From NCBI RefSeq assembly GCF_000212415.1, contig NC_015500.1, positions 2,852,001-2,916,000 on the forward strand: a DNA stretch of 64,000 bases, written 5' to 3'. A program made the translations under genes and the position numbers. This stretch comes from Treponema brennaborense DSM 12168. Its GTDB lineage: Bacteria; Spirochaetota; Spirochaetia; Treponematales; Treponemataceae. Below are positions 21,499 through 55,735 of the stretch, one piece after another. The notes beneath the pieces were generated by a model that was not told the origin of the DNA, ran no database searches, and was given only the letters and a program-made list of their open reading frames with translations. The stretch's first letter is position 1; every line of letters starts with the position of its first letter.

Positions 21499-21565
21499 CA
21501 GTCTCTCATACAAGGGCAAAGTTTGGAAGGTTTTTTTCCGTCAGTTCAACGCCCAGAAACCGTGA

Positions 21566-21861: not shown

Positions 21862-22261
21862 GGGACTTAGGGGAGTTCTTTCCTGCTTCAAATTACTTTA
21901 GATTGTCTTATTATTCCTATATTTTACACTATTTTCCGCTATTTGCAATCAAAAAAGCTCAGATTTTCTCAGAAAAAAGCATTTTTTACTTAATATTTTT
22001 CCTCAATAGCAGAGGGCGGAACTGTAGTATCTTTCCGTTCAAAATTCTGATTTTTGGGGAAGAATTTTTTCAGAATAGTGAAACTAACGATGATTATTTT
22101 TAACAAAAATGTCCGTCGGGTTTTTGTCCGAAAAACCTAACGGCCGTTGCTCAAATTTGCAGATAATTTAAGTAAAATTGTAGTTATTCTCCATATTTTA
22201 AGCTATTAAACAATTCCTTCATGAATTCTATTAAACTTTGTTGATAATATATATACGAAGT
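21862..22261. other. Gene-free left end of island 1
   Basis: AT-rich, with no credible reading frame. It contains the probable terminator of hamB described separately and otherwise nothing I recognise. Confidence 0.5.
22100..22143 (-). terminator. Probable terminator of the hsd-ham operon
   Basis: On the minus strand CCGTTAGGTTTTT pairs imperfectly with AAAAACCCGACGG around a short loop. The T-rich run ACATTTTTGTTA follows. It lies about 120 bases past the hamB stop codon. Confidence 0.5.
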
Positions 22262-26144: not shown

Positions 26145-26191
26145 TTTTTAATCTCAGTTTTATTAAAATCAAATATTGATTTTTCAATATA

Positions 26192-29661: not shown

Positions 29662-29677
29662 TTATTTCCCACCAAAA

Positions 29678-32074
29678 TTATTTATAAAGTTCTTTTTCTA
29701 TCTCAAGAATAATTGTTTCGTATGCTGCTTCGCCACCAAGAGTTTTTACTGCAGTTTTGTAACTGTAGCCATTCTGCTGAAAATATGGCATCCCGAAAAT
29801 ATCGATTGTCTTAAGATTTGAAAAATCAGTTTCTTTATACAAATCAATTACAAGATTCATGATTTTCTGCTGCTCTGGATTCAAATGTTTATTAAGTTCT
29901 CTTGCTCGATTAACTCTATCTTGCTTAGAAATTGCTTTTCCATATCCAAAATGGCAGACAAGATCATATAAATCTACTTCATGTCCAACAATATCTCTCA
30001 GTTTTGTAACAACTTTTTCACTTATCAATAAATCCATCAACATTCCATCTTTGACTTCAGCTACATCAAGTTTTGACCATGTGTTATAAAAATCTTCAAA
30101 AGTCGGGAATAAGTCTTCCACATTTTTTCTTACACAGCTTTCAACAGATTCTTCTCTTACAAGATTCATATTGTCATCAAGATATCTGATAGATGTATCT
30201 ACGAGTTCAACATCAACACCTTTAATTCTGAAAACTTCTCGTTTTTTCTTATTTTTTGTAGTAAGTGGAACAGCCGTTCCTCCTGGTACGACATCAACAA
30301 TACCATCAAAATCTGGATCGTCAAACTTCAAGTAATTCTTTCTGAAATCCATAATAACAAAGTGTGTTTTTGTTCGTTCTTCGGTTTCGTTTTCAAATTG
30401 GTATTTCTCAACTATACGAGTACCACGTCCAATTGTCTGCTTAAACTCAGTCATTGAGCCAATTGTTTTATCAAGAACAATAAGACCTACTGTTTTTGTA
30501 TCAACACCAGTTGAAAGAAGTTTACTTGTAACAGCGATTACAGGATATTTTTGACTTGTTGAAGAAAAGTTTTTTATTTGATCTTTTCCGGCCTGGTCAT
30601 TTGCTGTAATTCTCATTACGTAGCGCTGATTACTTTGTTTCATTAAGTCAGCATTTTCATTTGCAAGATAATCTCGCATAGCACCTGCATGTTCTTCTGT
30701 TTCACAGAATACTATTGTTTTTGTAAATCTATCATGTTCTTTTAAGAATTCGGAAATCTTTGTTGCTACAAGTTTTCTACGTTCATCAATAATTAACTTA
30801 CGGTCAAACTCTGGCATTAGATAAACTCGGTCTTCAAGAGGTTTTCCATGTATATCTTTTTCACCTTTCTTAGGTTTATATCCATCTCTATCAATATCAA
30901 GTTCATGTGCCATTACAACATACGGAGAAAGAAATCCGTCTGCAATTCCTTGCTTAAGAGAATATACATAAACAGGATCACCAAAGTATTCAAGATTGGA
31001 ACCAGAATTTGTTTGTTTAGGAGTTGCAGTTAAACCAATTTGTGTAGCACTGCCAAAATACTCAAGCATTTCATGCCAGCTTTTTTCTTCATTCAATGAA
31101 CCTCTATGACATTCATCTACTACAATAAGATCGAAGAAATCTGGTGGGAGTAGTTTATAATAATCTTTATCCGCAGTTGGTTCTTCATCAGGATTTTTAT
31201 CATCTTCATCTTCTGAACGACCAGATTTAAGTTGCTGATAAAGAGAAATAAAAACTTCGTAACTTGAAAGTTTTTTTACATCTTCTTCTGTTCTAAGATT
31301 TATATGCTCACCGATACGAACCATATTGTTCATTTTATGAAAGGCTGTGAAATCATCAAAAGTTTGAGCTGCGAGAGATGTTCGATCCACAAGGAAAAGG
31401 ATTTTTTTCTTTTTGCCAGCTTCATAAAGACGATAAATTATCTGCATTGCAACAAATGTTTTACCTGTTCCAGTTGCCATTACAAGTAGAAGTCTCTGTT
31501 GTCCTTTTGCAATTCTATCAATACAACGGTTAATTGCATTACGCTGATAATATCGTGGTTTTCTTCCATCTGCTCCCTGATAATAAGGAACTGTAATTAA
31601 GGAATTCTGTTCATCACTAATATTGTTGTTTTTCTTATATCTTTCCCAAAGTTCATCTGAAGTTGGGAATTCATTCATTGGGAATTCTCTGTTTGTTCCC
31701 ATATCCATATCTTCTTCATGGAAACATTTTCCATTACTAGCATAGGCAAAAGGGACATCCAAGAGTTTTGCATATTCAATAGCTTGGCTAACACCATCAT
31801 GAACATCATGGTCTATTCCTTTTGCTTCAACAAGAGCTAGAGGAAGATTGTATTTATAAAGTAAAAGATAATCGACTTTTTTTCGTTCTCCACGAGTAAC
31901 AGTACCATCTGAATCAACAAGAATCTGGCCATCTGTAAAGGCTGTCTTTCCATATTCCATCACAATTTGGTCACCTTCTGCAGACCATTTTTTTGTTAAT
32001 TCTGGAGTAATGTATTTTAGTTTTGTATTTTCTTCGTTTCGTGTTTGTTCATCGATATCATTAATTGGGGTCAT
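29678..32074 (-). CDS. hsdR: Type I restriction endonuclease subunit HsdR
   Basis: A 798-residue subunit of the EcoEI-like branch. The N-terminal nuclease region includes DYLLLYKYNLPLALVEAKG, which holds the ExK of the PD-(D/E)xK site. The SF2 translocase follows with Walker A MATGTGKTFVA (about residue 205), DECHRGS (about 320), TATPKQTN (about 345) and motif VI QTIGRGTRI (about 550). The C terminus matches the EcoEI R domain. It would cut DNA that lacks methylation after ATP-driven translocation. No strong ribosome-binding site precedes the ATG at 32074. It heads the hsdR-hsdM-hsdS-hamA-hamB unit. Confidence 0.93.
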   Translation of the reverse strand: MTPINDIDEQTRNEENTKLKYITPELTKKWSAEGDQIVMEYGKTAFTDGQILVDSDGTVTRGERKKVDYLLLYKYNLPLALVEAKGIDHDVHDGVSQAIEYAKLLDVPFAYASNGKCFHEEDMDMGTNREFPMNEFPTSDELWERYKKNNNISDEQNSLITVPYYQGADGRKPRYYQRNAINRCIDRIAKGQQRLLLVMATGTGKTFVAMQIIYRLYEAGKKKKILFLVDRTSLAAQTFDDFTAFHKMNNMVRIGEHINLRTEEDVKKLSSYEVFISLYQQLKSGRSEDEDDKNPDEEPTADKDYYKLLPPDFFDLIVVDECHRGSLNEEKSWHEMLEYFGSATQIGLTATPKQTNSGSNLEYFGDPVYVYSLKQGIADGFLSPYVVMAHELDIDRDGYKPKKGEKDIHGKPLEDRVYLMPEFDRKLIIDERRKLVATKISEFLKEHDRFTKTIVFCETEEHAGAMRDYLANENADLMKQSNQRYVMRITANDQAGKDQIKNFSSTSQKYPVIAVTSKLLSTGVDTKTVGLIVLDKTIGSMTEFKQTIGRGTRIVEKYQFENETEERTKTHFVIMDFRKNYLKFDDPDFDGIVDVVPGGTAVPLTTKNKKKREVFRIKGVDVELVDTSIRYLDDNMNLVREESVESCVRKNVEDLFPTFEDFYNTWSKLDVAEVKDGMLMDLLISEKVVTKLRDIVGHEVDLYDLVCHFGYGKAISKQDRVNRARELNKHLNPEQQKIMNLVIDLYKETDFSNLKTIDIFGMPYFQQNGYSYKTAVKTLGGEAAYETIILEIEKELYK

Positions 32075-38650: not shown

Positions 38651-40315
38651 CTAATCTTTTAGTTTATAATTTGCATACTTTCCTTTTTGGTTAGGAACAA
38701 GTTTACCTTCTGCAAGTAACTTCCTAATTTGCAAATAAGCCTGATCGCTTGAAAGCTTTAGTAAATCCATTACATTCTCTTTTGTGATTATTCCATCCTG
38801 TTGCTTTGCAAGTTTAATTATAAGTTCAGGATAGCGAACTGCATCTATATCAGTTTGTCGAACATATTTTGCACTTTCGTTATTCTGTTTATAAACTTTC
38901 GCACTCAGAATATAAGAACGATTGGTTCCATTCCTGGTTGCTTCTACAAGCCCAGCTTCTACCAGGTTTTCAATTGTAGAGATGGTGCGGGCTTTATTAA
39001 GATGAACAACTTCGCTTAGTCTTTCTATCGTCACTCTGCGTTCATTGCGGATTGTAGAGAGAATCAATAATGCGTTTATTGAAAGAGGGCGGTCTCTTCT
39101 ATTCTGTTCATCAGCAATCATTTTTGTAAACTGCATATCCGGATTAGCTCGTGGTACAAAAAGCTTAACAATTGATGATGTGCTTTCTGAATAATCAGGC
39201 CAAGGGCGACCATAAAGAATAGAGCCTTCGAAAATTCTATCGATTCCGCGACCAGTTTTTTCAACCATACCAGTACGTTTTAATACATCCGATAAACAAG
39301 GGTTTCTACCATGGGGTTCAACAGAAATAAGGTTTTCTGCATTTACTCCTTCGATAAATCCGCCCTGACTTGAAATCGTCATTCCTTCATTATCAATAAG
39401 AACACGAACTTGACCAAGCTGAGTATAATCTCGATGACCAAAAGCATTTAATAAACCTTCACGGAAAGCGGCAAGAGTGAACTCTGGAACAGGAATTCTG
39501 AAAAGACCATACTCCATTTCTTTCTCTGGATTCCAGGCTGTAAAGTATGTGGAAAATCTTTCAAAAACTTTGCCTACTGGTTCGTTTGAAGTTTCGTTTA
39601 TTTTTACATTGGTTCCAGATAAAACTTGAAATGATGCTCTATAAGTTGGCATCAAACGTTTTAAGCTTTCTGTTTTTCCAAGGAAAAGTAATCCTGTTAC
39701 AGTTGGTATTGTTTTTCCATTTTCTTCTACAACAAAGTGAAGAGCTTTGTAAAAGTTTTCCTTATTCAATTCAAGCAAGGACTTATCACTTCCAGGGTTA
39801 TTTTTAATAATACTTCTTAGATGCTCGAATTCTAGAATATCTAAATCTTCTTCTGTTGATCCTTCTACTGGCTGTGCAGAAAAATCAAGTAGACTTAATT
39901 CTGATAATCGGCTTGGAATTTCGTATGGGAACAAAGGAACTGCTTCTGGAGAACCATCAAATTTTAATCTGCGTCGTAAGGTTTTTCCGCTGGAAGTTGC
40001 GGTAACTGTTCTTGCTTTTGGAACTTCTATTTGTAGAACATCTGTCTTTTCTTCAGTTAAAACTTCAGCTCTTGTTGAAATTGACGGAACCGTGCTGTTT
40101 GCAATTAAAGCCATTACACCAATAGCATCTTTATGCTGCTTTGTAAGTCCGGTTATTTCACCATCATCTTCAACTCCAACATAAATTATACCGCCTTCGG
40201 CATTTGCCATTCCAACTACAGCTTCAATTAATTCAGAGTCTGGTAATCCATTTTTTTCCTTTGTATCTGATTTAAACTCAGTAAAAAGGTCTTCTTTTAC
40301 AGGTATTGTTCTCAT
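38651..40315 (-). CDS. AlbA_2-domain ATP-binding transcriptional regulator
   Basis: A 554-residue protein. The N terminus has the AlbA_2/Schlafen-AlbA-like pattern: EFKSDTKEKNGLPD, then AEGGIIYVGVEDDGEITGL. The middle includes a GHKL-like ATP-binding half (AFREGLLNAFGHRDYTQLG). The C terminus holds winged-helix elements (RRVTIERLSEVVHLNKARTI). Proteins of this type bind nucleic acid and regulate operons. The start at 40315 is chosen because AAAAGGG precedes it; an upstream in-frame ATG lacks one. It lies beside a region with repeated CGAGTTA boxes, which suggests autoregulation. A protein of the same family is in island 2. Confidence 0.75.
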   Translation of the reverse strand: MRTIPVKEDLFTEFKSDTKEKNGLPDSELIEAVVGMANAEGGIIYVGVEDDGEITGLTKQHKDAIGVMALIANSTVPSISTRAEVLTEEKTDVLQIEVPKARTVTATSSGKTLRRRLKFDGSPEAVPLFPYEIPSRLSELSLLDFSAQPVEGSTEEDLDILEFEHLRSIIKNNPGSDKSLLELNKENFYKALHFVVEENGKTIPTVTGLLFLGKTESLKRLMPTYRASFQVLSGTNVKINETSNEPVGKVFERFSTYFTAWNPEKEMEYGLFRIPVPEFTLAAFREGLLNAFGHRDYTQLGQVRVLIDNEGMTISSQGGFIEGVNAENLISVEPHGRNPCLSDVLKRTGMVEKTGRGIDRIFEGSILYGRPWPDYSESTSSIVKLFVPRANPDMQFTKMIADEQNRRDRPLSINALLILSTIRNERRVTIERLSEVVHLNKARTISTIENLVEAGLVEATRNGTNRSYILSAKVYKQNNESAKYVRQTDIDAVRYPELIIKLAKQQDGIITKENVMDLLKLSSDQAYLQIRKLLAEGKLVPNQKGKYANYKLKD

Positions 40316-40334
40316 AATATTCCCTTTTAATTCG

Positions 40335-40422
40335 ATTATAATATATTTTAACACGGTTTGTCGAGTTAAAATATAAATCTAACTCGGTTTACCGAGTTAA
40401 ACCGAGTTAGATCCCGAGTTAG
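40335..40422 (-). promoter_or_regulatory. Promoter with repeated CGAGTTA boxes
   Basis: On the minus strand a promoter reads TCGACA (40359-40364), an 18-base spacer and TATAAT (40335-40340). CGAGTTA boxes lie at 40362-40368, 40393-40399, 40403-40409 and 40415-40421. One perfect inverted repeat, TAACTCGGTTTACCGAGTTA, occupies 40380-40399. One box overlaps the -35. This is the arrangement of an operator for a regulator that controls its own gene. Confidence 0.65.
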
Positions 40423-42987: not shown

Positions 42988-43044
<57 letters not shown>

Positions 43045-43060
<16 letters not shown>

Positions 43061-43228
43061 AAAAAGACCGAACATTCCGTTCGGTCTTTTTTTTCCGTTT
43101 TCAGCGTTCCGAAAACGAAACGTATCATATGATACCGTCCGACAGGGCGGTTTTATTTTTTTAGGGGACTTGAACCGGAGCGGCACTGCCGCGCAGGCGG
43201 GGCAAAGCCCAAGTCCCCTCATCTCCAA
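43045..43228. repeat. Tail-terminator repeat, left part of the array
   Basis: One full 166-base unit (43045-43210) starts inside tRNA-Ala, followed by the first 18 bases of a second unit (43211-43228), where island 2 begins. The same unit continues at 55125-55735. Each unit contains the tRNA tail, a terminator hairpin, CGTTTTC/GAAAACG, the palindrome GTATCATATGATAC, and AGGGGACTTG paired with CAAGTCCCCT at the end. Confidence 0.85.
43066..43094 (+). terminator. Rho-independent terminator of tRNA-Ala
   Basis: GACCGAAC and GTTCGGTC form an eight-base stem with a five-base loop, followed by eight T residues, five bases after the tRNA discriminator. Confidence 0.9.
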
Positions 43229-43342: not shown

Positions 43343-44737
43343 GTGCGAATGAAATGCATCAAATCTTCAAAAAAATTACCTTTTAGGTTATATCTACGTA
43401 AACCTCGTAATGGCTCAAAAGAGTTACCCATTTACTATGTGCAGTTTAGAAGTGTGAACTCCAAACGATACTGGACTTCTGGTAAAAGCACAGGAAAAAC
43501 AGATAAGACAGAAGCAACTATTATTGCATATAAATGGCTAGCTTCAGAACAAATACCAGACAGAATAAATGCTCAAGTTTCAACTAATCATAGTTTGCAA
43601 CTACAAACAGTTCTAAATGCATTACGAAATGCACAATTCAATCAAAATGAACTTACTCAAATTATTCATACTCTAGAAACTGTATATGATATAAAAGGCG
43701 GAGTTGTTCCAAATACAGCAGCAGCAGTTTTAGTAAATGAGTATATGGTAGACTTTTGGGATAAAGACAAATCAGCTTACTTAAGAGAGAAAGGAATGTC
43801 TGGAAAGCCGGTCTATAATAATCACGCTTAATACTATGCGAAATATTGTTAAAAACTTCTGGTTACCCAAGTATGGAAATCATGAAATAGGTAGTTTTAC
43901 AAAGCAAGAGTTACAAAAATGGTTATGGGACATTAAAGTAACAGATTATGATAAAGGACAAAAGAAACCAAAAGTAGGAAAGCTATCTCACGTCTACGTA
44001 AACAGAATTCTAAGAGCAGGATTACAACCGCTTAAATATGCTTATCAAAATCAACTGATTAAAAACGATTGTTTTACAGGTTTTAATTTTCTATCGGACA
44101 ATCCAAAAAAGAAACAGATATTGACTCTTGAGCAGGCTGAAAAACTCTTAATACCCCATGTCTTAATCCAACTGCAAAACTTGCAAATCAACTTGCTATG
44201 CTAACTGGTTTACGTATAGGAGAAATACTAGCTTTTACTCCTAAAGACTTAGGCGTAAATAAAATATACGTGCAACATAGCTTTGCTGTTAGAGACGGTC
44301 TTAAGTGTCCTAAAAATGGAGAAACTCGAATTGTTCCAGCACCGTCAGAGTTACTGGAACAACTAAGAAAACAAGGACAAACTAATCCTTATGGTCAAGG
44401 TGAAAACGATTTTATCTTTTGGAGTACTACAAATCCAAATAAACCTTTTGACAATAAAACCAGGGGATAGCAACTAAGATTACAGCTAAAAAGTTTACGT
44501 ATGGAAAATGTTGAATCTATATCTTTTCATTCTTGGGGACACTTTTTTTCCACATATATCGAACCCAAATTGACTCATTCAGAACTTCAAAAAGTTACAG
44601 GTCATCCAGATGAAAAAATGCTTGAACATTATACCGATCATGAAACAGAAATTGCTCTTGAGCATGTTGGTTCGGGACCCCATACAGAAAATGATACTTG
44701 CGTTAGCTTGTGTCATTTTCAGTGTGGGGTACACTAA
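43343..44737 (+). pseudogene. Degenerate tyrosine integrase of island 2
   Basis: The product aligns along its whole length with the island 1 integrase pattern, but the gene is broken. A frameshift near 43815-43830 separates the arm domain from the core-binding domain. Another near 44160-44200 separates LTLEQAEKLL from PTAKLANQLAMLTGLRIGEIL. A TAG at 44468 interrupts the catalytic domain. After it, HSWGHFF has Gly in place of the Arg of HxxR. LTGLRIGEI (Arg), GHPDEKML and the Tyr in LEHYTDH remain. The end merges with the repeat hairpin at 44677. No functional protein is possible from it, so island 2 has lost its own excision enzyme. Confidence 0.9.
44677..44734 (+). repeat. Repeat hairpin shared by both islands, copy 2
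   Basis: ACCCCATACAGAAAATGATAC-type left arm and a right arm ending ATTTTCAGTGTGGGGTACAC pair with few mismatches around an 11-base loop. The 21 bases 44714-44734 are identical to 32386-32406. It lies between the dead integrase and the first defence gene. Confidence 0.7.
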
Positions 44738-44871: not shown

Positions 44872-47800
44872 ATGGCATCAAAATTTATTACAAATACAAA
44901 TGGCGAAAAATCACTTTCTGAACGTATACAGGGACTTACAAAAAGTAGTTCAAAACTTGATTTCCTTGTGGGATATTTCTTCTTCTCTGGTTTTTGTGAA
45001 ATATATAAAGAAATTGCAGATAAGCCGTTACGTATTTTAATTGGAATGGATGCCGAAGTTGATTTAAATAATTGTATTTACGAATACACAACTGAATTAG
45101 GAAATAAGAAAAATACTGATTCAAAACTTACAATTAGAAATAAGTATTTTGAAAGCTTAAAAAAGGCAATTAACAAAGCAGACAATCTAGATACAAAAGA
45201 AGTGGAAGACTCTTACAGGCTGTTTGTTGAAAAACTAGATAACGGTACTTTGGAAGTAAAAAAAACAAAAGACCCAAATCATGCAAAAATGTATTTGTTT
45301 TACATTCCGGCAGAAAAAACAACATCTGGTGAGGATGAAAGCAAACTGATTATAGGCTCAAGTAATTTTTCTTTGCAAGGATTAAAAGCCCGTAATGAAG
45401 TAAATGTTTTTTTACAAGAAGAAGCAGATTTTACAGATGCAAAAAAAATATTTGAAACACTTTGGAATGAAGCTATTCCATTAGTTAATGTAGATAATAA
45501 AGATGAGTTTAAAGAAAATGTTTTATCCCACACTTGGCTTGAAGCACTCCCAACTCCATACTTAATGTACATCAGAGTTTTGTATGAATATTTCAAAGTT
45601 AGCAAAGATTATATAAAAACACCAAAAGAGCTTACTTCAGACGGCATGACAGAATTTTTTGATGTATCGTATCAAGTTGATGCTATTCGTGACGGTGTAG
45701 CAAAAATTAAAAAACACTCTGGGGTTATTGTTGCAGACGTTGTAGGTTTAGGTAAATCAATTATTGCGTCTGCCATTGCTGCAAACTTAGACTGTAAAAC
45801 TGTAATTGTTTGCCCACCTCATTTAAGAACACAATGGGAAGATTATGCTTCAGATTTTAAGCTACGAGGATGCAAAGTTTACACTGCAGGAAAACTTGAA
45901 GAAGCTGTAATGCAAAATAAAAACGCTCAAGACCTTGTTGTAATAATTGATGAAGCTCACCGTTACCGAAATGAAAACACAGTTGATTATGGATTTTTAC
46001 ACCAATTATGTGCAGGTAACAAAGTAATTTTACTTTCTGCAACTCCATTTAATAACTGCCCCGAAGATATTTTTTCCTTAATAAAACTGTTCCAAATTCC
46101 AGCTCATCCTACAATTCAAACTGTAAATGATTTAGGAAATCAAATGGAACAACTTGTTATAGAATACAAAAAATTAAAAAAAGACCATCGCAATAAAAAA
46201 GCTAATGAAGCTCAGTTTAACAAAGAATCAAATGCATTAGCAGAAAAAATACGCGAAATTCTTGACCCTGTAATTATACGCCGAACTAGAGTTGACCTAG
46301 AAAAGCTTGATAAATACAAAAGTGATTTAGACTCACAAAATATTAAATTTTCTGACGTTCAGCCACCTAGCTCGCAAAATTATGAACTTGGCGAGCTATC
46401 ACCTTTGTACATAAAAACCTTAAATAATTTAACTGGTGCAATGGAAGATACGAGCGACGATGAAGATGACGAAAATGAAGAATCTAAGATAACTTTTAAA
46501 CAAAAAAACAATTCTCAATTTGGATTTTACGGTGCACGTTACAAACCATTAACGTATCTAAAAAAAGACACAAAAGATAAAAACAAGATTGATAAAAAGC
46601 TTATCAACAAATATAAAGTTTATTTTGATGATGTAGAAAACTTTGCTTCTGGTCAACGTAATATGGCAGAGTTTATGAAACAGTTGCTTGTACGCCGTTT
46701 TGAAAGTTCAAAGTATAGTTTTATAAAAACGCTTGAGAATATCAATAAATCTATGCTTACTCTAAAACGTTGGTATACAGAACTCCATAGAATTCCTATG
46801 ATAAAAAAAGTTAAATTACCTGACATTGATGAAATTCTAGAATTACTAGATGACACTACAGATAGCCTTTTTAGCGAAGATGATATTTTGCAATCAACCC
46901 TTTCTAAAGAAAATGAAAAGGGTGTTTGGTACATTGATTCAGAAGACCTTTCTCCTGATTTTGAAAAAGAGCTTAATTCAGATATAGCTCTTATTACAAG
47001 TTTTATAAACGACTGGAAAGCTACAAAAGAAGATCCAAAACTTAATAGCATTATTAAAACAATTCAATCATCTGTAAAAAAAGAACATAATCGTAAAATC
47101 ATCATCTTTACAGAGTTTTCAGATACTGCCGATTATTTGCAGGAAATGTTTGCAAAAGAAAAAATCCGCTCAATGATGTATTCCTCTAAAGTTGCAAGTA
47201 AAAGCGGCAGAGAAACTATCCGTTACAGTTTTGATGCTGGCTGTCCAGCAAATTTGCAAGTAGACGATTACGATGTACTTATTGCAACAGATGCAATTTC
47301 TGAAGGATTCAGTTTGCATAGAGCAGGCACAATTTACAATTATGACATTCCTTATAACCCAACACGTGTAATTCAAAGAGTTGGACGAATTAACCGTGTA
47401 AACAAAAAAATGTTTGATAAACTTTATATCTATAACTTTTTCCCTACTGCAACAGGTGAAGAAATAAGCCATACTGCAGAAATTTCTACATTTAAAATGA
47501 AGCTGTTTCAAGCAATTCTTGGAGCAGACACAAAGATTCTTACCACTGATGAAACAATTGACGGTTATTTAGGAGCAAAGTTTGCAGAAGCAGAAAATGA
47601 AGCAAACTCTATTTCTTGGGACGTTCCATTTAGAAACGAACTAAATACTTTAGAAAAAGAAAAAAGTCCTTTACTCGAAATGGCAAAAGAATTACCACAA
47701 AGGTGTCGTCTTGCCCGTAAAAACGTGAACTGCACAAATGCAAAAGAAGATTTATTAAATAAAGAACTTTTTGAAGATATAAAAGAAAAAGGTGTTTTAC

Positions 47801-48285
47801 TTTTTTCTAAAAAAGGTGATTCTTACAGATTCTGCTTTACTTCTCTTGACAGCTCTACAGTTTTAACATCTCCAGAGCAAGCATTAACGCTATTTAGGGC
47901 AACAGAAAAAGACGAAGGTACAAAAGTAACAGATGCCTTCTATTCACTTTACGAAAGAGCAAAAGTCGAAAGCGGGCACGTAAAAACGACAAGACAAAAA
48001 AGTAAAACTATACAAGAGGCTCTAATTAAGATTAATAGTTTGCTACGTACTGTAACAAATGAAAATCAAAAAGAATACTTGGAAGCCATCCGAAATGTGA
48101 TTAGTTGGGACAGTATTCCGTCTTTTTACATGAAGAAAATTGCAAAGATGAAAGAAGCTGGAGAAGAAACTATAACAAACTTAAAAACAATTATATCAGA
48201 TAAATATCTTGAAACAATTTTAGAAAAAGACAACAGAATAGATTCTGAACCAGAAACAATACTTTTATCAGAAGAGTTACAATAA
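44872..48285 (+). CDS. PLD-nuclease/SNF2-helicase fusion protein
   Basis: A 1137-residue protein. The N-terminal domain has a single phospholipase-D type site: HAKMYLFY (near residue 136) with GSSNFSLQG about 25 residues later, the HxK and GSSN of PLD nucleases. SNF2/DEAD helicase motifs follow: VADVVGLGKSII (Walker A, about 291), VIIDEAHRYRN (DEAH, about 360), LLSATPFNN (about 390), and the C-terminal lobe with LIATDAISEGFSLHRA and QRVGRINRVNK (about 800-840). A charged acidic insert lies near 520. It probably translocates on DNA and cuts, as the restriction subunit of the system encoded here. The next gene begins 11 bases after its stop. Confidence 0.85.
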   Translation: MASKFITNTNGEKSLSERIQGLTKSSSKLDFLVGYFFFSGFCEIYKEIADKPLRILIGMDAEVDLNNCIYEYTTELGNKKNTDSKLTIRNKYFESLKKAINKADNLDTKEVEDSYRLFVEKLDNGTLEVKKTKDPNHAKMYLFYIPAEKTTSGEDESKLIIGSSNFSLQGLKARNEVNVFLQEEADFTDAKKIFETLWNEAIPLVNVDNKDEFKENVLSHTWLEALPTPYLMYIRVLYEYFKVSKDYIKTPKELTSDGMTEFFDVSYQVDAIRDGVAKIKKHSGVIVADVVGLGKSIIASAIAANLDCKTVIVCPPHLRTQWEDYASDFKLRGCKVYTAGKLEEAVMQNKNAQDLVVIIDEAHRYRNENTVDYGFLHQLCAGNKVILLSATPFNNCPEDIFSLIKLFQIPAHPTIQTVNDLGNQMEQLVIEYKKLKKDHRNKKANEAQFNKESNALAEKIREILDPVIIRRTRVDLEKLDKYKSDLDSQNIKFSDVQPPSSQNYELGELSPLYIKTLNNLTGAMEDTSDDEDDENEESKITFKQKNNSQFGFYGARYKPLTYLKKDTKDKNKIDKKLINKYKVYFDDVENFASGQRNMAEFMKQLLVRRFESSKYSFIKTLENINKSMLTLKRWYTELHRIPMIKKVKLPDIDEILELLDDTTDSLFSEDDILQSTLSKENEKGVWYIDSEDLSPDFEKELNSDIALITSFINDWKATKEDPKLNSIIKTIQSSVKKEHNRKIIIFTEFSDTADYLQEMFAKEKIRSMMYSSKVASKSGRETIRYSFDAGCPANLQVDDYDVLIATDAISEGFSLHRAGTIYNYDIPYNPTRVIQRVGRINRVNKKMFDKLYIYNFFPTATGEEISHTAEISTFKMKLFQAILGADTKILTTDETIDGYLGAKFAEAENEANSISWDVPFRNELNTLEKEKSPLLEMAKELPQRCRLARKNVNCTNAKEDLLNKELFEDIKEKGVLLFSKKGDSYRFCFTSLDSSTVLTSPEQALTLFRATEKDEGTKVTDAFYSLYERAKVESGHVKTTRQKSKTIQEALIKINSLLRTVTNENQKEYLEAIRNVISWDSIPSFYMKKIAKMKEAGEETITNLKTIISDKYLETILEKDNRIDSEPETILLSEELQ

Positions 48286-48296: not shown

Positions 48297-49706
48297 ATGG
48301 CAGAGTCACAAAATATTGAATATAAAGAATCTTGGCGCGATGAATATCTTAAATGGATTTGTGGTTTTGCAAATGCGCAGGGAGGCAAAATCTATATTGG
48401 TATTGATGATAATGGAAAAATAATAGGTGTAAAAGATTCAAAAAAGCTTATAGAAGATATTCCGAATAAAATTCGTGACACGCTTGGAATTGTTGCCGAC
48501 GTAAATCTGGTAAAAAAAGAAAGCAAAGAATACATTGAAATTTCAGTTTTACAAAGTGCATATCCTGTAAATTACAAAGGTGAATATCACTATAGAAGCG
48601 GAAGCACAAAACAGCTTTTACAGGGAACAGCGCTTACTCAATTTTTGCTTTCAAAAACGGGAACAAAATGGGAATCTGTCACAGTAGATAATGTTAAGAT
48701 AGAAGACCTTGATAAAGAAAGTTTTGATATTTTTAAGCGTGAAGCATTAAAAAGCCAACGCATGACAAAAGCAGACCTTGCAATGACGAATGAAGAGCTT
48801 TTAGATAGCCTTCATCTTTTACAAAATGGAAAACTTACACGAGCTGCCGTTTTACTTTTTTACAGAGAACCAGAGCGGTGGTACAAAGGTTGTTATGTAA
48901 AGGTTGGATACTTTGGACTTGGTTCAGATTTACAATATCAAGATGAAATACACGGTTCTTTGATGATTTTAGCAGACAGAACAGTAGAACTAATTTACTT
49001 AAAATACCTAAAAGCATTTATTACTTACGACGATTTAATTAGAGTTGAAACATATCCAATTCCAAAAGATGCAATGCGTGAAGCTGTTTACAATGCACTC
49101 ATTCATTCAAATTATGCTGCTGGTTCACCAATTCAAATACGTATACATGAAGACCAAATTTATATTAGCAATGACTGCGTATTCCCTACTGGATGGACAG
49201 AAAAAACTTTACTAGGACATCACCGTTCAGAACTGTATAATCCGGACATTGCAAAAACTTTTTTTAGAGCAGGCTACGTAGAATCTTGGGGACGTGGTAT
49301 TCAAAAAATTTGTGAATTATGCAAAGAAGCCGATGTGCCTGAACCTGAATACATTGTTCATCCATACGACATAATGCTCTGTTTTAAAACAAAAGTAGGC
49401 AGAAAGATTATAGAAACAGATGAGAAACTACCTGTAAATGAGCCGCTAAATGAACTTCAAACTACCCAGAAAACTACCCAGAAAACTACCCAGAAAATTA
49501 CCGATAGTCAGATTAGTATTCTTAATGAAATAATGAATAATCCTCAAATAGGAAGAAAAGAATTAGCACAAAGAATAAGTAGTATTTCTGAGGATGGTGT
49601 AAAATACAACCTTAAAGCACTTCAACAGAAAAAAATAATTAAACGAGAAGGTCCTGACAAGGGCGGTTATTGGAAAATAATACAGCAAGAAGACAGAGGA
49701 GAATAA
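48297..49706 (+). CDS. AlbA_2-domain ATP-binding protein of the island 2 system
   Basis: A 469-residue protein. The N terminus reads ESQNIEYKESWRDEYLKWIC, then NAQGGKIYIGIDDNGKIIGV, which is the AlbA_2 (Schlafen-like AlbA) domain. The middle has a GHKL-like ATP-binding pattern (AVYNALIHSNYAAGSPIQIR, then WGRGIQKICELCKEAD). The C terminus is a winged helix (GRKELAQRISSISEDGVKYN), reached through a linker with the tandem repeat TTQKTTQKTTQK. It is placed between the helicase and methyltransferase genes with gaps of 11 and one base, so it is part of the same operon. A regulator or nucleic-acid sensor of the system is likely; its precise role is unknown. Confidence 0.75.
   Translation: MAESQNIEYKESWRDEYLKWICGFANAQGGKIYIGIDDNGKIIGVKDSKKLIEDIPNKIRDTLGIVADVNLVKKESKEYIEISVLQSAYPVNYKGEYHYRSGSTKQLLQGTALTQFLLSKTGTKWESVTVDNVKIEDLDKESFDIFKREALKSQRMTKADLAMTNEELLDSLHLLQNGKLTRAAVLLFYREPERWYKGCYVKVGYFGLGSDLQYQDEIHGSLMILADRTVELIYLKYLKAFITYDDLIRVETYPIPKDAMREAVYNALIHSNYAAGSPIQIRIHEDQIYISNDCVFPTGWTEKTLLGHHRSELYNPDIAKTFFRAGYVESWGRGIQKICELCKEADVPEPEYIVHPYDIMLCFKTKVGRKIIETDEKLPVNEPLNELQTTQKTTQKTTQKITDSQISILNEIMNNPQIGRKELAQRISSISEDGVKYNLKALQQKKIIKREGPDKGGYWKIIQQEDRGE
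49458..49502 (+). repeat. In-frame 12-base tandem repeat in the AlbA_2 gene
   Basis: ACTACCCAGAAA occurs three times in a row, followed by a variant ending AAATTACC, coding for TTQK units. Changes in number would not shift the frame. Confidence 0.7.
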
Positions 49707-49707: not shown

Positions 49708-52700
49708 ATGCAAACATTTGACGTAACAAAAAAATACAACAAGGAAGACTTTACAAACTTTTTAAGCGATTTTTTACCAGACGATTTTGTTCCAAACGAA
49801 GAAGAACTGTACGCAGATTTTAAGAACATAAAAACAGGTTTTAGACTTGGTGAATGTAAAAGCCTTGATTTAACAATATTTGAGTTTTCTGTATTAAGTG
49901 TTAATGACCCACGCGTAACTTTAACACGTGAAGTTTGTGCTCTAATGAAAAAATATGAATCATACCCAAACGTACTAGCTGTTTTTTATAACACAGAAAA
50001 TTCTCAATGGCGATTTTCATTAATCACTACAGATTACGAGACAGATAAAGAAGGAAACAATAAACCACTATACTCAAACCCAAAGCGTTTTTCTTTTGCT
50101 TTAGGCGAAGGCTGTAAACGTCATACACCAGAGTCTATGCTTTTTGAAAAAGGCACAGTAAAAGCAACAAAAGACAAGGCTGCACTTGATGATTTAAAAA
50201 GTAGATTTGCAATAGAAGTTGTTACAAAAGAATTCTACTCTGAACTTTTTGCTTGGTACGAATGGGCGTGTTCTGTTGCAACATATCCTGTTGGAAAAGG
50301 CGACAAAGTAGAGCAAGTGGCAAAAAATAACGAAACAAATATTATCCGCTTAATTACAAGACTAATGTTTGTTTGGTTTATAAAGCAAAAGTCTCTTATT
50401 CCAGAGTGGGTTTTTAATGAAAGTGAACTTAAAAATGTTTTAGCCGATTTTGACAAAGAGAGCCTAAAAAAAGGCAACTATTACAATGCAGTTTTGCAAA
50501 ATCTTTTCTTTGCTACATTGAATAAAGCAATTAATGAACGTGAGTTTACCGATAACGATAACGCAGCTAAACACTACGGCATAAAAACACTCTACCGTGA
50601 TGACACTGAAAAATCATTCTTTAAAGTTGACCATAAGAAGATTGTAGAAATTTTTAAGAGTGTCCCATTTTTAAATGGTGGACTTTTTGAATGTCTAGAT
50701 AAACTGGAAGACAAACAAATATATAATGATGGTTTTAGCCGTGAAAAAAATAGACGAGCATTTTTACCGAATGCATTGTTTTTTAGGGAAGAAAAAGACG
50801 GTCACGAAGGTATTGTTCATATTTTAAACCGATATAATTTTACGGTAGAAGAAAACTCTCCTGTTGATATACAAGTTGCCCTTGACCCTGAACTTTTAGG
50901 CAAAGTATTTGAAAATCTTTTAGGAACTTACAATCCAGAAACAAAAGAAACCGCACGTAAAGATTCTGGTTCTTTTTACACACCGCGAGAAATTGTAAAC
51001 TATATGGTAAAAATCAGTCTTGAAAAATACCTACAGCAAAAAATATCGTCCTTAAAACAAGAGGAAGCAGAATTACTTTTTTCAAGCGACGAAACAAATG
51101 CACCTTTTGACGATTCTGAAAAACTAACAAACTGCCTGATGAATGTAAAAGTGTTTGACCCCGCATGCGGTTCTGGAGCTTTTCCTATGGGAATTTTACA
51201 GGCTCTTGTTCTTGCTATAAAAAAACTTAACAGCGATAAATATAAAACAAACAAAGATTTATATAATTTAAAACTGCACTTAATAGAAAATTGCATTTAT
51301 GGCAGCGATATTCAAAGTATTGCGATTCAAATTGCCAAGTTACGCTTTTTTATTTCCCTGATTTGTGAACAAGACAAAACAGAAGACGCAAATAATAATT
51401 ACGGATTTGACCCTCTGCCAAACCTAGAAACAAAATTTGTAAGCGCAAACAGTTTAATTGGCATAAAAAAAGCAGAAAATCAAGGAAACCTTTTTGAAAA
51501 CCCTGAAATACAAATCATTAAAGGAAAACTTACTATTATACGGCAAAATCATTTTAAAGCAAAAACTTTGCAAGAAAAAAAGAGTTTGCGTGAAGATGAC
51601 AAAGCCTTGCGCGAACAATTAATACAGATTTTGCAGGAAGATAAATTTTTTGCACCAGAAGATGCAAGACAAATTGCTAGCTGGAATCCGTATAATCAAA
51701 ATGATGTAAGCTCCTTTTTTGATACAGAATGGATGTTCGGAATAAAAGACGGCTTTGATATTGTGATTGGAAATCCGCCGTATGTACAGCTGCAAAAAGA
51801 CGGCGGCAAACTAGCTACGATGTACGAAAACTGCGGATTTAAATCTTTTGCAAAAACCGGTGATATTTACTGCCTGTTCTACGAAAAGGCACATCAGCTT
51901 TTAGGACAAAACGGGTACTTGTGTTTTATAACCAGCAACAAATGGATGCGTGCTGGCTACGGTGAAAAACTGCGTGCCTTTTTTGCTTCAAACGTTAACC
52001 CGGAAGTTTTAATAGACTTTGCCGGCGTAAAAATTTTTGAAAGCGCAACGGTAGACACAAACATTATGCTCTATTGTAAAGCTAAAAATAAAGGTAAAAC
52101 TCTAAGCTGTGTTACAAAAGGCTTAACACAAGACGGCAGAGATAAATTGAGCGATTTTGTTCAGCAGAATTCATCAGTTTGCAAATTTGATAATTCTGAC
52201 AGCTGGGTAATTCTTTCTCCTATAGAACAGAGTATAAAAAGTAAAATTGAAAAAGTTGGTGTACCACTTAAAGATTGGGATATAAATATTTATCGTGGTG
52301 TGCTTACAGGATTTAATGATGCTTTTATAATTTCCACTGAAAAACGAAATGAAATATTGGCTAATTGCGAAACAGTGGAAGAGAAGACTCGTACTGCTGA
52401 TTTAATACGACCGATTTTGCGCGGCAGGGATATTAAGCGATATTCTTATGATTGGAAAGATTTATGGTTGATTTATATTCCTTGGCATTTCCCTCTTCAA
52501 TCTGATAAATCAATCCAAGGTGCATCAAAGAATGCCGAGCAAGAATTTCAAAGGCAATATCCAGCTGTTTATAATCATTTATTACAGTATAAAAAAGAAT
52601 TACTTTCAAGAAATAAAGCAGAAACAGGAATCCGTTACGAATGGTATGCAATGCAGCGTTGGGGTGCAAATTATTCGGAGGAATTTAATAAGCCAAAAAT

Positions 52701-53082
52701 TGTGTATCCAAACATGACAAAGTTTTTACCATTTGTTTGGGATTCTAAGCAATTTTTGACTAACCAAAAGTGTTTTATTATTACTGGAAACAACACAGCT
52801 TTTTTAACTGCTTTTTTGAATTCATCTTTATTCAAGTATTGTTTTAGAGATTCATTTCCAGAATTACTTGGTGGAACACGTGAACTAAGTAAAATTTTCT
52901 TTGATAAAATTCCGGTAATCAAAGTGGATAAAGAAACAGAGACAAAGTTTAAAGCCCTTGTTAATGACATTCAGTCAGATTATACAAAATCAAAAGCAAT
53001 AGAAATTGATAATATCATTTTTAACTTATACAATCTAACTGATGAAGAAAAATGTGTAATTGGTTACATAGAAGTAAATTAG
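49708..53082 (+). CDS. Eco57I-type N6-adenine DNA methyltransferase with invertible specificity domain
   Basis: A 1124-residue enzyme, one base after the AlbA_2 gene. An N-terminal region of about 400 residues of uncertain function (LTIFEFSVLSVNDPRVTLTR) precedes the methyltransferase core. Motif I is FDPACGSGAFPMGIL (about residue 484) and motif IV is IVIGNPPYVQLQ (about 688), which indicates adenine methylation. The C-terminal part from about 810 is a TaqI-like target-recognition region: IRPILRGRDIKRYSYDW (about 905) is the conserved link between two halves. The segment 52142-52251 is repeated, inverted, at 53853-53962, next to an alternative C terminus and a serine recombinase. The active form should therefore be exchangeable by inversion. 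It resembles PglX of BREX in size, but no BREX partners are present. Confidence 0.88.
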   Translation: MQTFDVTKKYNKEDFTNFLSDFLPDDFVPNEEELYADFKNIKTGFRLGECKSLDLTIFEFSVLSVNDPRVTLTREVCALMKKYESYPNVLAVFYNTENSQWRFSLITTDYETDKEGNNKPLYSNPKRFSFALGEGCKRHTPESMLFEKGTVKATKDKAALDDLKSRFAIEVVTKEFYSELFAWYEWACSVATYPVGKGDKVEQVAKNNETNIIRLITRLMFVWFIKQKSLIPEWVFNESELKNVLADFDKESLKKGNYYNAVLQNLFFATLNKAINEREFTDNDNAAKHYGIKTLYRDDTEKSFFKVDHKKIVEIFKSVPFLNGGLFECLDKLEDKQIYNDGFSREKNRRAFLPNALFFREEKDGHEGIVHILNRYNFTVEENSPVDIQVALDPELLGKVFENLLGTYNPETKETARKDSGSFYTPREIVNYMVKISLEKYLQQKISSLKQEEAELLFSSDETNAPFDDSEKLTNCLMNVKVFDPACGSGAFPMGILQALVLAIKKLNSDKYKTNKDLYNLKLHLIENCIYGSDIQSIAIQIAKLRFFISLICEQDKTEDANNNYGFDPLPNLETKFVSANSLIGIKKAENQGNLFENPEIQIIKGKLTIIRQNHFKAKTLQEKKSLREDDKALREQLIQILQEDKFFAPEDARQIASWNPYNQNDVSSFFDTEWMFGIKDGFDIVIGNPPYVQLQKDGGKLATMYENCGFKSFAKTGDIYCLFYEKAHQLLGQNGYLCFITSNKWMRAGYGEKLRAFFASNVNPEVLIDFAGVKIFESATVDTNIMLYCKAKNKGKTLSCVTKGLTQDGRDKLSDFVQQNSSVCKFDNSDSWVILSPIEQSIKSKIEKVGVPLKDWDINIYRGVLTGFNDAFIISTEKRNEILANCETVEEKTRTADLIRPILRGRDIKRYSYDWKDLWLIYIPWHFPLQSDKSIQGASKNAEQEFQRQYPAVYNHLLQYKKELLSRNKAETGIRYEWYAMQRWGANYSEEFNKPKIVYPNMTKFLPFVWDSKQFLTNQKCFIITGNNTAFLTAFLNSSLFKYCFRDSFPELLGGTRELSKIFFDKIPVIKVDKETETKFKALVNDIQSDYTKSKAIEIDNIIFNLYNLTDEEKCVIGYIEVN
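52142..52251 (+). repeat. Left arm of the 110-base inverted repeat
   Basis: Inside the methyltransferase gene, encoding LSDFVQQNSSVCKFDNSD and the following IEQSIKSKIE. It is identical over 110 bases to the inverse of 53853-53962. Sequence diverges at once on the inner side. Confidence 0.95.
52403..52439 (+). repeat. Inner 37-base inverted repeat, left arm
   Basis: TAATACGACCGATTTTGCGC and the next 17 bases are identical to the inverse of 53665-53701. It encodes the conserved IRPILRGRDIKR between the two variable halves of the specificity domain. Confidence 0.9.
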
Positions 53083-53957
53083 CTATTTTCTACAAAGTCT
53101 ATTTCTTCTTCTGTAAGATTATATATATTGTAAACTAATTTATTAATCTCATTTTCATTTTGCGATTCTTTATATTTAGTAAATAATGCATCAGAAATTG
53201 TATTAGGAACAGGCAATTGTTCAATAAACATAGGTTTATATTCAAAATAGCCACCATTTCTTGTTACTCCAAGATTTCTGATATAGTAATCTGCAAGCTT
53301 TGAATTAAGTATACACAATAAACTCTCACTTGCAGAAACAATCATTGTTGCAGGAGCATTTATCATCATTCCCTTTGGTGCAAAGGAATATGTTGCAGAT
53401 AAGTTAAGATTCCCCCAAACAATTTTTGGCTTATTAAATTCGTCCCAATAACTTATGCTGTCTTGTGTTTCAAACCATTTGTTATTTGTCTTTTTACGGG
53501 CAGTAATTTGTTCGCCTCTTATAATGTACTTTTTGCCAGTCTGTTCAAGACGTTCCATTCCAAAAGTTAGTAAGTATTTTTTTACCGCAGGATATTTTTC
53601 AATATCGTAATGCTTAGATGGAAATGTTGCGATTAAATAAAGTTCCGCCCACTCATACCCATAACGCTTAATATCCCTGCCGCGCAAAATCGGTCGTATT
53701 AGCTCCTCAGTTCGTTTGTTTTCGTCAGCGGTTTTACAGGCGGCTAAAATCTCGTTACGCGTCTCTTTGCTGATAATAAATGCGTCATTGTAGCCGGTTT
53801 TAATGCCGTAATTTATGCTTATATCCCAGTCCTTGAGAGGCGTGCCAACAGCTTCAATTTTACTTTTTATACTCTGTTCTATAGGAGAAAGAATTACCCA
53901 GCTGTCAGAATTATCAAATTTGCAAACTGATGAATTCTGCTGAACAAAATCGCTCAA
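53079..53957 (-). CDS. Silent alternative C-terminal specificity cassette of the methyltransferase
   Basis: A 292-residue open frame on the opposite strand. It starts with the same LSDFVQQNSSVCKFDNSD as the active gene and keeps the same order: conserved segment, variable half (DISINYGIKTGYNDAFIIS), IRPILRGRDIKRYGYEW, second variable half, and an end similar in style (IYNLTEEEIDFVENS versus LYNLTDEEKCVIGYIEVN). It has only a TTG as a start, no methyltransferase core, and lies directly after the recombinase stop, so it is probably not translated as such. Its stop codon overlaps that of the active gene tail to tail. It is a reserve of a different DNA specificity that inversion would attach to the catalytic core. 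Confidence 0.88.
   Translation of the reverse strand: MSDFVQQNSSVCKFDNSDSWVILSPIEQSIKSKIEAVGTPLKDWDISINYGIKTGYNDAFIISKETRNEILAACKTADENKRTEELIRPILRGRDIKRYGYEWAELYLIATFPSKHYDIEKYPAVKKYLLTFGMERLEQTGKKYIIRGEQITARKKTNNKWFETQDSISYWDEFNKPKIVWGNLNLSATYSFAPKGMMINAPATMIVSASESLLCILNSKLADYYIRNLGVTRNGGYFEYKPMFIEQLPVPNTISDALFTKYKESQNENEINKLVYNIYNLTEEEIDFVENS
53665..53701 (-). repeat. Inner 37-base inverted repeat, right arm
   Basis: Inverse copy of 52403-52439 inside the silent cassette. Confidence 0.9.
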
Positions 53958-53962
53958 TTTAT
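53853..53962 (-). repeat. Right arm of the 110-base inverted repeat
   Basis: Inverse copy of 52142-52251. It begins in the last codon of the recombinase gene and runs into the silent cassette. Confidence 0.95.
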
Positions 53963-54588
53963 ATACACATTTTTTTGTATTTTTGAATCAAACTACTTTT
54001 TCCCACAAAATGAGCAAGAGTGTTCCTGTCAACTTCAAAATATTTGGCAATTTTTCTTTGTGATATACGGCAGAACAACAGTTCGCATATTAGTTCGTCT
54101 TTTTGATATAGCTTATGCCGTTTTGGAGATGTTTTTCTTCCTTTAGGTCTTCCTAAAATAGTGCCACTTGCTTTTTTCAATTTTAACGCTTCTTTCGTTC
54201 TTTGACTAATTAGATTACGCTCAATTTCTGCACTTAATCCAAACGCAAACGCCAATACCTTGCTTTGAATATCGTCGCCAAGTCGATAGTTGTCTTTTAT
54301 TGTCCACACTTTGCATTCTTTATTCATACAAATATTCAATATTTCCATAATCATAAAAAGATTTCGTCCTAGACGACTAAGTTCTGCACAAATTATTAAA
54401 TCACCTTTTTTAACTTGCTGTAAAAGAAGCCCTAGTTTTCGTTTGTCGTAATTTTTTGTTCCGCTGATTGTTTCTTCTATCCAGCCGTCAACGTTAAGCT
54501 TTTCTTTTTTACAAAAATTGTTAATTTCAAACCGCTGGTTTTCAACTGTCTGTTTGTCGGTGCTAACCCGAATATATCCGTATGTCAT
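53959..54588 (-). CDS. Serine site-specific recombinase, probable DNA invertase
   Basis: A 209-residue small serine recombinase. YIRVSTDKQTVENQ carries the catalytic Ser (about residue 9), AELSRLGRNLFMIMEIL the conserved Arg pair, and AEIERNLISQRTKEAL the long E helix. The C-terminal DNA-binding helix-turn-helix is CRISQRKIAKYFEVDRNTLA. The size and layout are those of Hin/Gin/Pin invertases and small resolvases. It lies against the inverted repeat: its stop codon at 53959 sits inside the right arm. This placement is the main evidence that it inverts the specificity segment. No Fis-type enhancer was identified. Resolvase activity is an alternative. Confidence 0.88.
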   Translation of the reverse strand: MTYGYIRVSTDKQTVENQRFEINNFCKKEKLNVDGWIEETISGTKNYDKRKLGLLLQQVKKGDLIICAELSRLGRNLFMIMEILNICMNKECKVWTIKDNYRLGDDIQSKVLAFAFGLSAEIERNLISQRTKEALKLKKASGTILGRPKGRKTSPKRHKLYQKDELICELLFCRISQRKIAKYFEVDRNTLAHFVGKSSLIQKYKKMCI

Positions 54589-55100
54589 TTTATAACCTCG
54601 TTACAGAGTATTAAAGAGGAAATCAAATGGAACAGCAACCAACTACGAATTCTATTGCATTTAACAAATGCCTATATTCTTACAGAACAATTATTAATAC
54701 AATCAAATCTCAGCCAAAGAGCAAAAGTATAGACTAATTTAGACATGTATTGTTTATTTTAGGAATTAGTTAAAAATTTAATTCATTTTCTATCAACTTC
54801 ATGTGGCGTGTACCATAGGATAGGAAGGATTCATAGGAAATGATTATTAAACTTTATCAGAATTTATTCTGATAAAGTAACAGGGAATTGTCAGCTTTAG
54901 CTGACAAGGGGTGTAACCCTCGTGTTAGTCTAACGGCATTGGTAAGTACTACTGGTAGTAAAAACATACAGTTTCAATATTCTCTTATATAACTCAATAA
55001 TACACTGTATTTTTGTATCTCTATATGATATATTAAATAAGCGATTCTATATAACTTGCTATAACACAATAAAATATATTATAACAATACTATAATTCAA
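54589..55100. other. Gene-free right end of island 2
   Basis: Very AT-rich with no credible reading frame. It holds two hairpins, TTATCAG/CTGATAA near 54858-54880 and GTCAGC/GCTGAC near 54889-54904. The promoter of the recombinase gene probably lies near its left end. Confidence 0.55.
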
Positions 55101-55140
55101 TGGCATGCAAGAGGTAAGGGGTTCAAGTCCCCTCATCTCC
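55101..55140 (+). repeat. tRNA-Ala 3' fragment, right attachment site of island 2
   Basis: Forty bases identical to 43021-43060, the 3' half of tRNA-Ala from the anticodon loop to the acceptor end. The 5' half is missing, so no tRNA is made. It begins exactly where the AT-rich island ends. Confidence 0.9.
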
Positions 55141-55735
55141 AAAAAGACCGAACATTCCGTTCGGTCTTTTTTTTCGTTTTCAGCGTTCCGAAAACGAAAC
55201 GTATCATATGATACCGTCCGACAGGGCGGTTTTATTTTTTTAGGGGACTTGAACCGAAGCGGCACTGCCGCGCAGGCGGGGCAAAGCCCAAGTCCCCTCA
55301 TCTCCAAAAAGACCGAACATTCCGTTCGGTCTTTTTTTTCCGTTTTCAGCGTTCCGAAAACGAAACGTATCATATGATACCGTCCGACAGGGCGGTTTTA
55401 TTTTTTTAGGGGACTTGAACCGAAGCGGCACTGCCGCGCAGGCGGGGCAAAGCCCAAGTCCCCTCATCTCCAAAAAGACCGAACATTCCGTTCGGTCTTT
55501 TTTTTCGTTTTCAGCGTTCCGAAAACGAAACGTATCATATGATACCGTCCGACAGGGCGGTTTTATTTTTTTAGGGGACTTGAACCGGAGCGGCACTGCC
55601 GCGCAGGCGGGGCAAAGCCCAAGTCCCCTCATCTCCAAAAAGACCGAACATTCCGTTCGGTCTTTTTTTCGTTCTCAGCGTTCCGAAAACGAAACGTATC
55701 ATATGATACCGTCCGACAGGGCGGTTTTATTTTTT
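55125..55735. repeat. Tandem array of about 165-base tail-terminator units
   Basis: Units start at 55125, 55290, 55456 and 55621, with periods of 165, 166 and 165 bases, and the last unit is cut at about 115 bases where the thioesterase gene ends. Each unit starts with AAGTCCCCTCATCTCC (the tRNA tail), has GACCGAAC/GTTCGGTC plus T-run (a terminator), then CGTTTTC/GAAAACG, the palindrome GTATCATATGATAC, CCGTCC/GGGCGG plus T-rich tail, and AGGGGACTTG, which pairs with the next tail. Copies are nearly identical (GAACCGAAG versus GAACCGGAG, small length changes in the T-run). Frames across it are spurious. Confidence 0.9.

Follow-up and report, generated by a model that had tools for sequence, protein, structure and literature searches.

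Analysis of a 64,000-nucleotide (nt) stretch of the Treponema brennaborense DSM 12168 genome revealed a locus that very probably acts as a specificity switch with two, or possibly more, states in a restriction-like defense system. This stretch (here called the window) covers positions 2852001 to 2916000 of a 3,055,580-bp single-contig genome (NC_015500.1), and all other coordinates are positions within the window unless another locus is named. A DNA methyltransferase gene and a silent cassette for an alternative specificity domain on the opposite strand are linked here by a perfect inverted repeat, and the gene for a serine DNA invertase lies flush with one of the arms. An initial annotation of the locus had proposed that inversion switches the specificity of the methyltransferase. 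Comparison with relatives, which include a case of natural reciprocal inversion, supports this proposal, and at the level of the family the sequence data support the mechanism well.

The methyltransferase gene (49708 to 53082, plus strand) encodes, in its current orientation, a protein of 1,124 amino acids with the motifs DPACGSGAF and NPPY, the latter invariant in the alignment, and with Pfam matches to Eco57I, N6_Mtase, and TaqI_C. The presence of NPPY together with the Eco57I and TaqI_C matches identifies the enzyme as an Eco57I/TaqI_C-type (gamma-class) N6-adenine methyltransferase. The silent cassette (53079 to 53957, minus strand) comprises 292 codons, has no upstream methyltransferase part of its own, and yields TaqI_C as its only Pfam match. 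The two repeat arms, located at 52142 to 52251 (plus strand, at the junction of the catalytic and specificity domains) and 53853 to 53962 (minus strand), are identical over 110 nt, exactly as first described. They form the longest exact inverted repeat of the window, the next two (37 and 23 nt) coming from the same cassette pair; in 100 Markov-1 simulations of 49708 to 54588, no exact inverted repeat exceeded 20 nt. An assembly artifact was ruled out, as similar repeats that differ in sequence and length are found in many independent assemblies.

Beyond the arm, the active and silent C termini share 46% identity, and each of them has a TaqI_C match. The initial annotation had them diverge right after the repeat, but the similarity fades gradually past the perfect part, with 78% identity over 314 nt. 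Inversion in silico inside the arms gave an open methyltransferase frame of 1,105 amino acids and a silent cassette of 311 codons; the inverted repeat connects the expressed gene with a silent but intact alternative that is in frame once inverted. The predicted exchange of the last 275 or so residues agrees with the ~276 residues past the perfect repeat, but the whole swapped protein segment is larger (~310/292 residues).

The structure model of the methyltransferase (predicted local distance difference test [pLDDT] score of 82.9) matches CamA (Z = 32.9, residues 391 to 1110) and, through the recognition domain to residue ~1110, also BseCI, MmeI, and BrxX. HsdM proteins, which are without a recognition domain, align only as far as residues 837 to 839. 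Since these alignments end there and the recognition-bearing methyltransferases reach ~1110, the breakpoint (residues 812 to 848) is placed at the boundary between the catalytic and recognition parts, and the inverted part is, according to the model, the recognition domain of the methyltransferase. The N-terminal domain (residues 1 to 167, pLDDT of 90.5) was also considered as a possible nuclease, as in type IIG restriction enzymes, which combine nuclease and methyltransferase in a single chain, but gave no convincing fold match: the best one, a putative restriction-endonuclease domain, reached only Z = 5.8. Inspection of the alignment by eye revealed no invariant catalytic set.

The gene next to the right arm (53959 to 54588, minus strand) encodes an Mpi-family serine DNA invertase of 209 amino acids, which matches PF00239 and, with 323 versus 272 bits, exceeds the curated cutoff of NF009949 ("master DNA invertase Mpi family"). 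That a serine recombinase lies directly against this arm was correctly recognized before; its open reading frame (ORF) in fact ends inside the arm, with the TAA stop codon overlapping ATAAATTGAGCG. R7, S9, D63, R72, and R75 are invariant among 13 aligned invertase sequences, with the conserved catalytic Ser and Arg present, and the gene is the only one of its family in the genome at an E value of ≤1e-5.

According to the start of the invertase-adjoining cassette, the related loci of the Treponemataceae fall into three breakpoint classes, at the junction (class A), late in the recognition domain (class B), or at the NPPY motif (class C, comprising loci L045, L051, and L053). The invertases of different classes are 87% alike in their catalytic domains and only 30% alike in their DNA-binding domains, which within a class reach 71%. 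A fourth, more distant group (D) is ~49% identical overall to the invertase of the window. In L045 (positions 11556 to 15190 there), a single methyltransferase is followed by two stacked silent cassettes and by two invertases that differ in class, and a class C inversion would therefore carry the other switch along. In L057, L066, L072, L075, L099, and L137, the invertase is directed away from the silent cassette, not towards it; the site sequences vary in these loci, several of them being close to GACGATTTT.

The functional recombination site is probably confined to the outermost ~20 nt of the arm. Its proposed core, GAGCGATTTTGTTCAGC, is located at 52149 to 52165 (plus strand) and, as an exact copy, at 53939 to 53955 (minus strand), and no other exact copies were found in the 3.06-Mb genome. 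At this site, the arms share merely 18 nt in L012, 20 nt in L065, and 22 nt in the Lactococcus plasmid pJM1F, which is why the whole 110 bp was discarded as the recombination site in favor of the outer ~20 nt. Class A loci have a stretch near TGAGC(G/C)(A/T)TTTTGT in common, at the outer end of the arm closest to the invertase. The site is also marked by synonymous hyperconservation, the codons for LS-x-FVQQ being frozen across 24 methyltransferases. Ser815, although serine has six codons, is encoded by AGC in 23/23 sequences (entropy of 0), compared to a mean codon entropy of 1.79 and a minimum of 1.27 at other conserved Ser columns (n = 17), and Leu814 is encoded by TTG in 21/24 (entropy of 0.54 versus a mean of 2.20 at 62 Leu columns). 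Class B loci (L039, L040, and L042) carry GAGGGATTTTGTT in another frame, which yields FKEGFCW instead of LSDFVQQ; the core that they have in common with class A is GAGSGATTTTGTT, with differing reading frames. Because the same core occurs in a different frame and encodes a different peptide, conservation at this site is of the DNA and not of the peptide.

Both orientations are found in nature for this system family, in a host different from the strain analyzed here. The Lactococcus plasmids pJM1F and pUCCL629A both carry a helicase (of the PLD/SNF2 type in pJM1F), a methyltransferase, an opposite-strand cassette, and an invertase, and the two invertases are annotated with one protein accession (WP_021164920.1). 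The flanks of the plasmids are collinear at the DNA level, with 94.7% identity on the methyltransferase side and 100% on the invertase side. The active first half-domain of pJM1F corresponds to the silent one of pUCCL629A in inverted form (97.9% nt identity, versus 65% to the active one of pUCCL629A), and the silent first half-domain of pJM1F corresponds to the inverted active one of pUCCL629A (85.4%, versus 62.5% to the silent one). The arms of pJM1F have exactly GAGCGATTATGTACGACAAAAT in common, which is nearly the core of the window, and then diverge. Judged from these alignments, the inner first half-domains of the two plasmids are reciprocally inverted in nature, with the break in the core found in the window. 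A plasmid nucleotide search with the window as the query yielded no close copies.

The silent cassette of the window shows amino acid identities of 77% to the active domain of L012, another treponeme, and of 79% to the L037 silent domain. By the NG86 method, nonsynonymous (dN) and synonymous (dS) divergence were 0.165 and 1.97 versus L012 and 0.129 and 2.84 versus L037; dS is close to saturation, so that dN/dS is approximate yet far under 1, and LWL85 served as a second estimate, NG86 being saturated for some pairs. These values indicate selection on both alleles, the silent cassette being a working allele under purifying selection. Furthermore, domain types that are active in one genome recur as silent copies in others. 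The L051 silent cassette, for example, shares 71% identity with the L049 active domain, and the active segment of L041 matches the silent one of L045 at 90.7% nt identity.

We propose that the invertase encoded at 53959 to 54588 would bind the two short site copies (core, GAGCGATTTTGTT) in the coding sequence at the junction of the catalytic and recognition parts and invert the 1.7-kb segment between them. The constant part of the methyltransferase (residues 1 to 814, i.e., the N-terminal domain, the helical part, and the N6-methyltransferase) would thereby acquire the alternative recognition domain in frame, and the former recognition domain would be parked as a silent cassette. With its new domain, the enzyme would methylate another motif; DNA without this motif would be restricted by the PLD/SNF2 helicase. 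We infer that the window's own invertase does the switching and that inversion occurs in this strain.

Several observations weigh against this interpretation. The assembly of the strain shows one orientation only, and the silent cassettes of L041, L043, and L040 are degraded, so that switching may be blocked at some loci. As a natural inversion pair, the clear case comes from a distant relative (~35% methyltransferase identity to P0003 and 57% invertase identity), and the second half-domains of pJM1F and pUCCL629A are unrelated; more than one event therefore divides the two plasmids. Finally, the 110-bp perfect arms are longer than a serine invertase needs, and homologous recombination could therefore contribute. 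Taken further, the arms might recombine by general homologous recombination or gene conversion, with the invertase as a neighbor that has another target or none, and identity over 137 to 141 nt in four Bacteroidales genomes, likewise above the length of a serine-recombinase site, would fit this explanation. It is nevertheless improbable, since only 18 to 22 nt are common to the arms of L012, L065, and pJM1F, synonymous freezing is limited to the site, and the genome holds no further exact site copy. In addition, the DNA-binding domain of the invertase varies with the breakpoint class, and Mpi-type invertases recur by this arrangement in many phyla. The single orientation and the degraded cassettes elsewhere might also mean that the switch of this genome is locked and its silent cassette no more than a relic of duplication. 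With an intact 292-codon frame under purifying selection, perfect arms, an intact invertase with conserved catalytic residues, and the same domain active in L012, we consider a locked switch very improbable.

In addition to the repeat at the domain junction, active and silent copies have a second block in common within the specificity domain. It encodes E/D-F-NKPKI and spans 36 nt at 52668 to 52703 (plus strand, active copy) and 53419 to 53454 (minus strand, silent copy), which form a 92% inverted repeat, and a conserved E/D-D-F-x-K-P-K-I segment is present mid-domain in both copies. In L066, L075, L099, and L125/L185, the second block is exact over 24 to 35 nt. Half 1 and half 2 of the recognition domain assort largely independently: the silent copy of L050 is 90% identical to the active domain of L037 in half 1 and 28% identical in half 2, and its half 2 matches the silent copy of L037 at 86% nt identity. 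Thresholds for counting such mosaics were lenient, and overall conservation is higher in half 1 than in half 2 (median identity of 0.49 versus 0.28); only pairs with identities of >0.8 versus <0.33 are taken as mosaic evidence. Half 2 is probably exchanged at the second block (residues ~993 to 1001), by the invertase or by homologous recombination, which would add combinations.

The system has the gene order PLD/SNF2 helicase, AlbA/HATPase protein, and methyltransferase (all on the plus strand), followed by the opposite-strand cassette and the serine recombinase. The helicase (44872 to 48285, plus strand; 1,137 amino acids) is a PLD-like nuclease/SNF2 helicase with Pfam matches to PLDc_2, RE_NgoFVII, SNF2-rel_dom, and Helicase_C above the cutoff, and is the probable effector, presumably acting as a nuclease. 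A helicase of the same family adjoins the methyltransferase in nearly all related loci, and the AlbA_2/HATPase_c_4 gene is usually missing between the two. In the window, this accessory gene (48297 to 49706, plus strand) shows domain matches to Schlafen/AlbA_2, HATPase_c_4, and HTH; the window encodes another protein with this AlbA_2/HATPase_c_4 domain makeup at 38651 to 40354.

The whole system is probably contained in a 12-kb element at a tRNA-Ala gene. The 3' end of tRNA-Ala(GGC) plus downstream sequence (~161 nt; 43020 to 43181, plus strand) is repeated at 55100 to 55260 with a 99% match, and four tandem copies occupy 55100 to 55735 (plus strand); these direct repeats are the probable boundaries of the element. 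The GC content in the region of the system is ~33%, versus 50 to 57% outside. Three short ORFs at 43343 to 44470, inside the element, the last of which has a weak phage-integrase match, resemble a broken integrase. More defense genes, namely, PDC-S34, Hachiman (HamA/HamB), and a type I restriction-modification (R-M) system, are present at 20224 to 32074, and the HsdS of this type I system is unusually long (646 amino acids).

This setting bears on whether the switch, if real, serves mainly gene regulation via altered methylation (a phasevarion) and not restriction specificity. CamA, the closest solved structure to the methyltransferase model, is an orphan epigenetic methyltransferase, and this likeness is in favor of a regulatory role. 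Switching methyltransferases elsewhere are also known to change transcription (reviewed in PMC11868660). On the other hand, nearly all related loci have a PLD/SNF2 helicase next to the methyltransferase, the same window includes Hachiman and type I R-M genes, and the 12-kb island that carries the system lies at a tRNA gene, all of which makes a predominantly regulatory output rather unlikely.

The spread of related loci was assessed in the 80 best GTDB matches and 24 IMG/VR matches, plus the Lactococcus plasmids. The arrangement is present in Bacteroidota, Elusimicrobiota, a proteobacterium, Balneola, Fibrobacter, and Treponema among the GTDB and IMG/VR matches; with Bacillota represented by the Lactococcus plasmids and by L098/L179, a clostridial genome, similar loci occur in at least seven phyla. 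Relatives from the same family are recorded as Treponema (including the contigs of L068, L073, and L097), in line with the spirochete host suggested earlier. In several genomes, the methyltransferase and the invertase are on separate contigs that terminate within the same arm, with 137 to 141 identical nt in the four Bacteroidales genomes and 14 to 99 nt into the arm in others. Such breaks are suggestive of mixed orientations and were not counted as proof, because contigs are also broken by any repeat longer than the assembly k-mer, and the point where identity stops cannot be read from a contig ending inside an arm. In locus L195 (Prevotella nigrescens, NZ_CP082843.1, positions 1274 to 9404), a methyltransferase is followed by a pair of silent cassettes of the Eco57I type, an ATP-binding gene, and the gene for an Mpi invertase.

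By its described architecture, Pin17FIII of Prevotella intermedia 17F, the nearest case in print, has the same layout as the window locus, with an SNF2 helicase, a methyltransferase of 1,117 amino acids, and "ORF9595" of 305 amino acids on the complement strand 24 bp downstream (PMC5608340). The authors gave no inversion reading and reported no invertase (PMC5608340). The initial statement that no description of this combination was known therefore has to be tempered: the gene arrangement is found in many phyla and was published as Pin17FIII, although the inversion went unrecognized in that paper. Cloned alone in Escherichia coli, the Pin17FIII methyltransferase produced N6-methyladenine (m6A) at GGYGAB and ORF9595 alone produced nothing; GGNYAG and CCNYAG were additionally seen in the native genome and are unexplained (PMC5608340). 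If GG/CC and YGAB/NYAG are read as the contributions of the two halves, these motifs may represent three of four combinations in P. intermedia 17F. Unassigned m6A motifs of this strain and of Rikenella microfusus may stem from inverted forms of such loci (PMC5608340). A broader model, tentative and rated a little below an even chance, is that of a widespread modular recombination system around one methyltransferase family. Exchanged DNA-binding domains would aim invertases with a common catalytic domain at the NPPY, junction, or late recognition motif, and half-domains would be shuffled at the junction and the mid-domain block to give up to four motifs per locus, of which GGYGAB, GGNYAG, and CCNYAG of P. 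intermedia would be three of the four in {GG,CC} × {YGAB,NYAG}.

Inversion of HsdS in type I R-M systems, e.g., of Streptococcus pneumoniae, likewise involves invertible specificity modules, silent copies, and combinations of half-domains, but acts on a separate S subunit and, in the S. pneumoniae system, uses a tyrosine recombinase, in contrast to the single-chain methyltransferase with its own specificity domain and adjoining serine invertase in the window (PMC4948785). By analogy, the locus appears to work like an HsdS inversion switch. Its recombinase belongs to the same family, above the curated NF009949 cutoff, as the master invertase Mpi of Bacteroides fragilis. Mpi inverts many promoters genome-wide; unlike this, the site in the window is part of a coding sequence, and the genome contains only two exact copies of it. 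Reportedly, Milman, Yelin, and Kishony in 2023 named type II R-M genes as a new target class of gene-altering programmed inversions, and the locus probably belongs in this class. A literature search, which did not reach the likeliest papers, found no description of this system.

BREX PglX and Type-2 BR have a related methyltransferase fold, and Type-2 BR pairs an HKD-SNF2 helicase with an N6-methyltransferase, plus a DUF499 ATPase and DUF3780 (PMC12839542); neither DUF499 nor DUF3780 was found among the ORFs scanned around the system. Membership in BREX was rejected (PglX, 83 bits versus a cutoff of 500; neither PglZ nor BrxC among the ORFs scanned in the window), as was membership in DISARM (DrmD, 145.8 bits versus a cutoff of 610; no DrmA or DrmB among the ORFs scanned). 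Together with the Pfam matches of the helicase, this bears out the non-BREX, PLD/SNF2-helicase setting assigned at the outset.

Present annotation splits such loci into a methyltransferase and an "orphan specificity protein" and thereby conceals the switch. Its recognition may offer an explanation for orphan methylation motifs in published methylomes, and the family, small Lactococcus plasmids included, would provide a tractable system for invertase site choice, switching rate, and phage defense. Inversion-based switching of specificity, known for separate HsdS subunits, would be extended to a family of single-chain N6-methyltransferases coupled to a helicase, with members in at least seven phyla.

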